Of a DNA stretch of 64,000 nucleotides, positions 41,531 through 45,608 are shown in pieces; within the stretch, counting starts at the first letter, position 1; every line of letters begins with the position of its first letter. Below the pieces are notes generated by a model. The model saw nothing but the letters and a program-made list of their open reading frames with translations. It made no database searches and had not been told where the DNA came from. The translations under genes were made by a program, and so were the position numbers. The DNA is from Myxococcota bacterium (lineage in GTDB: Bacteria > Myxococcota_A > UBA9160 > SMWR01). The stretch lies in contig JBCCEW010000009.1 in assembly GCA_039030075.1 (NCBI GenBank), positions 107,204 to 171,203 of the forward strand, read 5' to 3'.

Positions 41531-41643
41531 GGCGCCTCCATCGGAGTTCTCGCTGCGCAATCTAGCGAACGGGCGTGTCGTGTATGCTGACCGCCCGCAG
41601 CGTCGAGGTGGCCCTCGGCTGGCGGACGATCCAAGGAGGCGGT

Positions 41644-42711
41644 GTGGGCTGTCGCGGCGTGGTGTTCCTGGGCGACGGGTCCTACGAGGTGCGGGAGTTT
41701 CCGATCCCGACTCCGCTGCCGGGAGGCGCGGTCTTGCAGGTCGAAGCCGTCGGTCTCTGCGCGAGCGACGTCTCCCAGCTGCGCGGCGTGCCCCACGTCC
41801 CGGGCGAGGTGTGCCCGGTCGTCCCGGGACACGAGATCGTCGGCCGCGTCCACGCCCTCGCACCCGACGCGGATCTCGGCGTGTCGGTGGGGCAACGGGT
41901 CGGCGTCGATCTGCTCGTGCTGAACTCGCCGGCGCGTCCCGGTCTCAACCTCTACGGGTACACGATTCCGCCCGATTTCGAGCATGGGCTGTGGGGCGGC
42001 TACGGCGAGTACATGGGGATCCTGCCCGGTACCCAGCTCGTTCCCCTGACCGACGACGTGCCCGCCGCCGAGCTCTCGCTCATCGAGCCGCTCTCGTCGA
42101 TCGTCGCGTGGTCCGAGGCCGTCGGGCTCTCGCGCCACGATCGGCTGGTCGTGCAGGGGCCGGGGCACATGGGGCTCATCGCGGTCGCCTACGCGGCTTG
42201 CATGCTCGACGTGAAGCAGATCGTGGTCACAGGAACCGCACGCGACGGGCTGCGTCTCGAGGCGGCGCGCGCGCTCGGGGCGCACGAGACACTCGTGGTG
42301 GAAGAAGAGGCGAACCTCGTCGGTCGCATTCAAGAGTTGACCGGAGGGGGCCCGAGCGTGGTCATGGAACTGTCGGCGATGGCGACTCAGCCCGTTTCGG
42401 ACGCGATCGAGATGGCCCGCATGGGCGGGCGCATCCTGCTCGGGGGCATGAAGGACCAGCGCCCGGTCGAGATCATCAGCGACCACATCATCATGAAGTC
42501 GCTGCGGGTGATCGGCGGGTCGGGCGGCACCCCCGCGACCTTCGCGAAGGCCGGAGACGTGCTGAACTCGGGTCGCTTCCCGACCGCGACGCTGGTGGGC
42601 GAGACCTTCACGCTCGACGAGATCGACGAGGCGATGGCGCTCCTCGAGCGCACGCTGCCCGACCGCGACGCGGTGCGCGTGGGCCTGGTGCACCGCGCGA
42701 CCGGCGGCTAG
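41644..42711 (+). CDS. Zinc-type alcohol dehydrogenase (MDR)
   Basis: 355 aa from GTG 41644, with AAGGAGG just upstream; 23 extra upstream codons are open but not protein-like. The GroES-like domain has the catalytic zinc ligands in GLCASD and GHEIVG; the four-Cys structural zinc lobe is missing. The Rossmann part has QGPGHMGLIAVAYA. The form resembles threonine/sorbitol-dehydrogenase-like MDRs. TATGCT (41583-41588) is a candidate -10. Divergent from the crotonase at 40718, and sharing a CTAG stop overlap with the selenoprotein gene. Confidence 0.87.
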   Translation: MGCRGVVFLGDGSYEVREFPIPTPLPGGAVLQVEAVGLCASDVSQLRGVPHVPGEVCPVVPGHEIVGRVHALAPDADLGVSVGQRVGVDLLVLNSPARPGLNLYGYTIPPDFEHGLWGGYGEYMGILPGTQLVPLTDDVPAAELSLIEPLSSIVAWSEAVGLSRHDRLVVQGPGHMGLIAVAYAACMLDVKQIVVTGTARDGLRLEAARALGAHETLVVEEEANLVGRIQELTGGGPSVVMELSAMATQPVSDAIEMARMGGRILLGGMKDQRPVEIISDHIIMKSLRVIGGSGGTPATFAKAGDVLNSGRFPTATLVGETFTLDEIDEAMALLERTLPDRDAVRVGLVHRATGG

Positions 42712-43457
42712 AGCCCCCCGATCGCGGCGAAGATCGCCTCGGGTTCGGCGCGTTCCCGGTAGGTGGTGGACTGGTAGGTCCACTGCACCTGGCCCGACCG
42801 GTCCACGAGTATGGCGGTCGGGTAGGCGATGTCGGCGCCGTCCTGGCGCGCGCCCTGATGGCGGATGCCGAGCGCGTCGAGCAGGGTGCCGTCGGTGTCG
42901 GCGAGGAAGGTGAACTCGACGTCGAGGTGGTCGCGCAGGCGTCGCGACACCTTCGGGGGGTCGACGCTCACCGCGTAGAGTTCGACGCCCTGGTCGTGGA
43001 TCCGTTCGTAGTACTGCTCGAGCTGGACCAGCTCGACCCGACAGAAGGGTCACCAATCGCCGCGGTAGAAGATGTAGAGCTCGGGCGGGCGCGTTTCGCC
43101 CTCGGTGCGCGCGTGGCGGATCTCGTCCTGGTCGAGCAGCGAGTACGCCGGGAACGGATCGCCCACCGCGACCTGGAGTGTCGAGGGCGGCAGCTGGGAG
43201 AGCTGCAGGATGTAGACCGAGACCAGGCCGACGAGCAGCGCCTCGACGCCGACCACGGGCCAGGCGAACCAGGGGCGGCGACGCACGAGGGAGCCGATTC
43301 CGAGGGCGAGTCCGCCCCACATCGGGAGCAACACGAACCAGGGGACCCGTGCGTGGATGATCTGCTCGAAGCCGAAGCGCAGCGTGTCGCTCGGGGCCAT
43401 CGCCCAGAAGATCCACGCGACCATCCCGAAGACGACGACGGCGGAGGCGACGAGCAT
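42708..43457 (-). CDS. Membrane-anchored peroxiredoxin-like selenoprotein (in-frame UGA = Sec136)
   Basis: One frame from ATG 43457 to TAG 42708 is broken only by TGA at 43052-43050. Reading it as selenocysteine gives 249 aa: three N-terminal helices (about 1-22, 38-58, 65-85), then a thioredoxin fold with FYRGDW-U-PFC, where AhpC/TSA-like proteins have RGxWCPxC, followed by VELVQLEQYYERI and LYAVSVDPP. Sec136 is followed by Cys139 (UxxC). The reading frame and protein similarity continue across the stop, and a SECIS-like hairpin follows. A conventional caller would report two fragments. Confidence 0.85.
43018..43052 (-). promoter_or_regulatory. Bacterial SECIS-like element for Sec136
   Basis: On the minus-strand RNA, 13 nt after UGA (43052-43050), TCGAGCT pairs with AGCTCGA (43036-43018) around a GGUCC loop; GGUC occupies positions +21 to +24 after UGA. 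The E. coli fdhF SECIS places the same GGUC at about +19 to +22. This should bind SelB and direct selenocysteine insertion. Confidence 0.75.
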
Positions 43458-44921: not shown

Positions 44922-45608
44922 ATGAGCAAGGAAGCAAGCCGGTTGGCCCTCGCGGCGGGCGCGTTGCTCGTGGTTTTCGGGATCGGCGCGTTCCTCTACA
45001 ACCAGTCCCAGAGCGACGCCCAGTCGAGTCTGCTGGCCGCCGCCGACGACACGGTCTTCGAGCGCCCCCACAGCGTGACCAAGGGGTCTGCCGACGCGCA
45101 GGTGACGATCGTCGAGTTCCTCGACCCCGAGTGCGGCTCCTGCAAGCTGATGCATCCCTACGTGAAGCGGGTCATGAACCAGTACGGCAGCCGGGTGCGT
45201 CTGGTCATCCGCTACCTCCCGCTCCACAAGAACTCGATCCAGGCGATCGCGGCGCTTGAGGCGGCCCGCGAGCAGGACCGCTTCTGGGACATGCTCGAGA
45301 TCCTGTTCCGCGAACAGCACATCTGGGGCTCGCACAAGCTGCCGCGCCCCGAGCTCATTCCGGGCTACGCCGAGCAGATCGGGCTCGACATGGAGGCCTA
45401 CGATCGGGTGGTGAGCCGCGGCGAATACAAAAAGCTCGCCGACATCGATCGCGCCGACGCGGCAACGCTCGGTGTGCGCGGGACGCCGACCTTCTTCGTC
45501 AACGGACGGCCCCTCGAGAAGCTGGGCTACGACGGGCTGCGTCAGCTCGTCGCCGACGCCCTCGCCCAGTCCTCCCGCACCGACAGCGAGTCCGGCACCG
45601 AGAGCTAG
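44922..45608 (+). CDS. DsbA-like thiol-disulfide oxidoreductase (BdbD-like)
   Basis: 228 aa, ATG with GGAAG upstream. One N-terminal membrane anchor (about 7-26), then a thioredoxin fold with active site DPECGSCKLM (Cys71-Cys74), an alpha-helical insertion and the cis-Pro loop GTPTFFVN. Partner of the DsbB-like protein immediately upstream. It introduces disulfides into exported proteins, such as the secretin-system or lipase proteins of this organism. Confidence 0.92.
   Translation: MSKEASRLALAAGALLVVFGIGAFLYNQSQSDAQSSLLAAADDTVFERPHSVTKGSADAQVTIVEFLDPECGSCKLMHPYVKRVMNQYGSRVRLVIRYLPLHKNSIQAIAALEAAREQDRFWDMLEILFREQHIWGSHKLPRPELIPGYAEQIGLDMEAYDRVVSRGEYKKLADIDRADAATLGVRGTPTFFVNGRPLEKLGYDGLRQLVADALAQSSRTDSESGTES

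Follow-up and report, generated by a model that had tools for sequence, protein, structure and literature searches.

The stretch of DNA analysed here, the window, comprises 64,000 nucleotides from a Myxococcota bacterium. Its minus strand harbors a complete gene for a redoxin-domain protein, predicted to be anchored in the membrane, whose active site contains an in-frame UGA codon. The gene and its features are given below.

42708..43457, minus strand: complete predicted selenoprotein gene of 249 codons plus a TAG stop (42710-42708), with ATG at 43457 and selenocysteine (Sec) as codon 136
43398..43454, minus strand: predicted transmembrane helix 1, residues 2-20 (AlphaFold2 model)
43278..43340, minus strand: predicted transmembrane helix 2, residues 40-60 (AlphaFold2 model)
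43200..43265, minus strand: predicted transmembrane helix 3, residues 65-86, after which the chain would enter the periplasm (AlphaFold2 model, charges)
42747..43166, minus strand: redoxin domain (AhpC-TSA/PrxQ-AhpE fold), residues 98-237 (Pfam PF00578 and PF08534; Foldseek 3hjp and 4x1u)
43062..43064, minus strand: Arg132, invariant, in place of the Pro of PxxxTxxC (alignments)
43050..43052, minus strand: UGA specifying selenocysteine 136, the U of UPFC (TGA in 14/14 aligned rows)
43041..43043, minus strand: Cys139, second residue of the UxxC pair, aligned with the peroxidatic Cys of peroxiredoxins (alignments)
43018..43036, minus strand: bSECIS hairpin UCGAGCUG-GUC-CAGCUCGA, with an 8-bp stem and the 3-nt loop GUC at 43028-43026, 21 nt after the UGA
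42819..42821, minus strand: Pro213, invariant (in DIAYP), where PrxQ has its catalytic Arg (alignments)

An earlier sequence-only reading of this DNA had placed the gene, its strand, the motif FYRGDW-U-PFC and the TGA at 43052-43050 (codon 136) exactly. Between the ATG at 43457 and the TAG at 42710-42708 that TGA is, as had been claimed, the sole internal stop, and the similarity reported on both sides of it is borne out by a Pfam AhpC-TSA match that spans residues 98-226 (E=3.3e-21); the Pfam Redoxin match likewise extends across the TGA. The stop codon overlaps that of a convergent zinc alcohol dehydrogenase gene (41575-42711, plus strand) within the sequence CTAG at 42708-42711.

Of the 91 genomes of the class, 13 (the window genome counted) yielded an orthologue, and a further one, L053, was taken from a separate collection; a fourteenth class match (G080) was left out as a member of a different subfamily. 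The resulting alignment A1 has 14 rows, the window gene and 13 orthologues, which are 49-63% identical to the window protein and in which the start and end positions of the gene are alike. TGA stands at the position of codon 136 in all 14 rows and is thus neither a sequencing error nor a chance stop. Compared with the window protein, the anchor is 32-52% identical, the segment leading up to the TGA 51-64% and the part downstream of the TGA 58-72%; this last part, being better conserved than those upstream, must therefore be translated and constrained. Homologues truly ending at residue 135, which were sought as evidence against a selenoprotein, were not found. Since 7 of the 13 orthologues also use TGA as their terminal stop, some signal has to distinguish the two TGAs.

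Such a signal is provided by the hairpin. According to PMC13188914, a bacterial SECIS has a loop of 3-9 nt, a stem of 4-16 bp, a G in the first two loop positions, a spacing of 16-37 nt and an MFE of at most -7.5. Evaluated as a simple hairpin, the window element agrees with each of these published terms (8 bp, loop GUC, 21 nt, -11.0 kcal/mol; -14.3 when folded with its flanks). Its free energy is only modestly unusual, an equally stable fold being reached by 6 of 300 synonymous shuffles, and the free-energy z-scores of single longer segments are weak (-0.89 and -0.25), so the SECIS claim rests on a family-wide test. Among 38 distinct Sec sites of this and related families, many of them related to one another and hence not 38 independent events, with at least three unrelated stems involved, 37 pass the bSECIS model as so described. 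In 200 rounds of synonymous-codon shuffling 4.7 passed on average and never more than 10, a null that is conservative because the codon pool was that of the Sec sites themselves; none of nine Cys homologue sites passed. Though Leu has six codons, the stem is spelled GAG CTG. CAG CTC in 14/14 rows. All four stem codons are invariant, as against only 4 of the 46 codons elsewhere that can be compared (Fisher p=3e-4, stem only), in a test whose region was picked after the hairpin had been seen. Related Sec subfamilies carry other hairpins in the same zone, namely UGUCGCCG-AGUUG-CGGCGAUG, AGCUGCAA-GGU-UUGCAGCU and CGCAGCUC-GGC-GAGCUGCG. An Rfam scan of the window gave no matches, which says little because bSECIS elements are diverse. 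The SECIS-like hairpin proposed from the letters is accordingly real.

The genome also encodes a complete Sec system, where its absence had been named as grounds for rejecting the idea: profile matches were found for SelA (517 bits), SelB (323) and SelD (271), together with a tRNA-Sec with anticodon TCA (UCA). A second match to the tRNA-Sec model, L002, was discarded as a tRNA-Ser according to ARAGORN. The SelD match (L061) sits in an open frame of 863 codons, far longer than SelD alone, and possibly represents a fusion protein. From these comparative data UGA-136 is almost certainly decoded as selenocysteine.

The redoxin domain scores 75.9 bits against PF00578, for which the curated cut-off is 26. 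The model has the peroxiredoxin fold, and the best solved folds returned by Foldseek are the Bcp4, AhpE and PrxQ peroxiredoxins (3hjp, 1xvw, 2cx3; target TM-score mostly 0.73-0.89), which, unlike the window protein, are soluble, use Cys and carry the canonical Pro/Thr/Arg signature. In a profile alignment to Aeropyrum PrxQ (2cx3) UPFC lies over SPVC: the peroxidatic Cys is matched by Cys139, the Ser/Thr three positions ahead of it by U136 and the motif Pro by R132. The PxxxTxxC motif of canonical peroxiredoxins is thus absent, with R132 and U136 in its place, and the position that the sequence-profile alignment assigns to the catalytic Arg is occupied by P213; all three residues are invariant throughout alignment A2. 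What is left in the active site is a thioredoxin-type UxxC pair preceded by W135. The description "peroxiredoxin-like" therefore holds for the fold and fails for the catalytic signature, and the protein, having UxxC where peroxiredoxins have TxxC or TxxU, is classed as a Prx-like UxxC thiol:disulfide oxidoreductase and not as a true peroxiredoxin.

A Prx-like superfamily with UxxC has been known since 2005 (PMC1088965). The Prx-like thiol:disulfide oxidoreductase selenoproteins (PF00578, UxxC/UxxU; WP_010940744; the Sargasso Sea "Prx-like" family) share with the window protein the Pfam domain, the distant homology to peroxiredoxins and the replacement of TxxU by UxxC (PMC1088965, PMC13188914). 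The window subfamily differs in its three-helix anchor and its separate clade, WP_010940744 being set apart by description; the consulted portions of the literature on the family make no mention of a membrane anchor. Selenoproteins listed as redoxin family protein (PF08534, UxxC; HEU0032618, MBA3499694) likewise combine a redoxin domain with UxxC (PMC13188914, Table 1; PMC9312934); these were compared by description only, which does not give their N-terminal architecture, and they may be the same as the window subfamily. Sec peroxiredoxins (TxxU, PF00578) share the fold and the use of Sec, which in them occupies the peroxidatic site, whereas in the window protein it lies three residues earlier, at the Thr/Ser position. 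The thiol:disulfide oxidoreductases ResA and TlpA are also membrane-tethered periplasmic redoxins with a Cys pair two residues apart, and are anchored by one helix or a signal anchor. They contain Cys only, and the match to the ResA profile (NF002854, E=3.2e-12) stays at 46.7 bits, below the curated cut-off of 170. The profile for SelL-related redox proteins (NF040769) likewise gives 37.8 bits against a cut-off of 120. The kind of enzyme is already known; the novelty lies in the anchor of three helices, in an orthologue group found only with Sec, and in a Sec-rich genome that looks aerobic. Within the open-access literature no paper linking selenoproteins to this Myxococcota lineage was found.

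A tree built from 43 domains places the 14 subfamily rows, all with Sec, in one clade (support 100/99), and in the genomes examined no member turned up outside a single group of uncultured Myxococcota or in any but the selenium form. The sequence-only reading had taken a Cys version to be the normal form; for this subfamily none was found among the 91 class genomes or in a 379-genome sample of the phylum that overlaps them. Absence from incomplete assemblies is weak evidence, but it is informative that not one of the members recovered has Cys. The expected Cys homologues with N-terminal helices do exist (L076, L077), in a separate and distant clade, and in other parts of the phylum there are Cys relatives whose N-termini resemble signal peptides (L078, L079, L081). 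The class contains a second membrane-anchored Sec clade (FFRAHWUPYC), with one copy in the window genome (L083/L094), and a third (GHWUPFC). A match in genome G027 (L080, residues 1-100, no stop) was considered as a Cys or chimeric orthologue and rejected, as a contig end cuts it.

Sixteen redoxin-type matches were found in the window genome, 11 of them with an in-frame TGA (L094-L103 on contigs C37, C3, C12, C36, C41, C17 and C16; unread ones on C20 and C6). In the nine that were read, the window gene and eight paralogues, the TGA occupies the active-site position in each. L098 (TPGUTE) and L103 (TFVUATE) are canonical Sec peroxiredoxins, and L097 has the variant VDWUPFT, in which Thr replaces the second Cys. 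Two heme-copper oxidase-type genes (L111, L112) suggest that the organism respires oxygen; for the second of them, NO reductase is another possible identity.

With moderate confidence, the locus as a whole is best explained as encoding a membrane-tethered, periplasm-facing selenol/thiol oxidoreductase. On comparative grounds UGA-136 is almost certainly decoded by SelB and tRNA-Sec under the direction of the hairpin 21 nt downstream, and the charges and model suggest that the three helices would hold the protein N-in/C-out, with the Prx-fold domain on the inner membrane's periplasmic side. Sec136, low in pKa, would act as the attacking nucleophile and, at the membrane surface, reduce a substrate that is either a disulfide or a peroxide, Cys139 would close a Se-S bond with release of the product, and a periplasmic thiol relay of the DsbD/CcdA type is a putative partner for re-reduction.

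As to the chemistry, we lean towards a disulfide-type reaction, a TlpA/thioredoxin-like selenol-disulfide exchange, which seems favored over the classical peroxiredoxin cycle because the canonical Pro, Thr/Ser and Arg are all replaced. Against disulfide chemistry, and in favor of peroxide as the substrate, is the fact that the nearest folds are peroxiredoxins (AhpE, PrxQ, Bcp4), and ResA-type proteins are the weaker sequence matches. A periplasmic peroxide or lipid-hydroperoxide reductase, in which Sec136 (or Cys139 at the peroxidatic position) attacks and the partner residue resolves, is hence a realistic if lesser prospect: beyond the structural matches and the alignment of Cys139, a membrane anchor would suit lipid peroxides, and the oxidase genes imply that oxygen is probably met. 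Apart from the missing motif and Arg, this reading is opposed by the known Sec peroxiredoxins, which carry Sec at the peroxidatic site, and by the TxxU-type proteins that the genome already has (L098 TPGU, L103 TFVU).

The three N-terminal membrane helices of the sequence-only reading reappear in the AlphaFold2 model (pLDDT 91.7), where they precede the redoxin fold. In all orthologues the loop that joins helices 2 and 3 (VRRRPWFAW) has a strongly basic character, with 49 K/R against 1 D/E over 14 sequences, and the segment after helix 3 has 4 K/R against 16 D/E. By the positive-inside rule the loop is therefore probably cytoplasmic, and from charges and model together it is likely that the redoxin domain lies on the periplasmic side. 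Three helices could in principle insert the other way round, and peroxiredoxins are mostly cytoplasmic, so that the domain might instead face the cytoplasm and have thioredoxin or its reductase as a partner at the inner membrane. The basic loop and the acidic flank on the domain side make this unlikely, as do the Cys relatives L078, L079 and L081, which have apparent lipoprotein signal peptides, as in exported redoxins. That TGA-136 is a true stop, a sequencing error or the mark of a pseudogene, leaving a 135-residue membrane protein, is exceedingly improbable: TGA is a standard stop and ends several of the orthologues, but the downstream conservation, the invariance of the codon, the bSECIS statistics and the Sec machinery all speak against it.

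Selenoproteins are rarely retained by aerobic bacteria, according to a recent review (PMC13188914). Our broader proposal, which falls a little short of an even chance, is of a periplasmic, membrane-tethered, Sec-only redoxin subfamily in probably aerobic Myxococcota whose redoxin set has largely moved to selenium. If true, the subfamily would be an exception to the views that selenoproteins are rare in aerobes and that Cys forms accompany Sec forms. It offers a clean case of Sec kept, with no Cys counterpart found, in a predicted exported domain and in a lineage that has heme-copper oxidase genes and in which oxidation of the selenol ought to carry a cost, and the reason for retaining selenium becomes directly testable by a Sec-to-Cys comparison. 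Automated annotation normally cuts such genes at residue 135 and so misses the enzyme.

In the flanks available around the orthologues no gene is conserved beside them that would point to a substrate or reductant; the window's own neighbours, among them a 4'-phosphopantetheinyl transferase gene upstream, the zinc alcohol dehydrogenase gene that converges on it and a DsbA-like gene, were tried as operon or synteny partners and are absent there. The DsbA-like thioredoxin, two genes away (44922-45608, plus strand), has an N-terminal hydrophobic segment and the active site CGSC and, though not conserved beside the orthologues, is a possible periplasmic redox partner.
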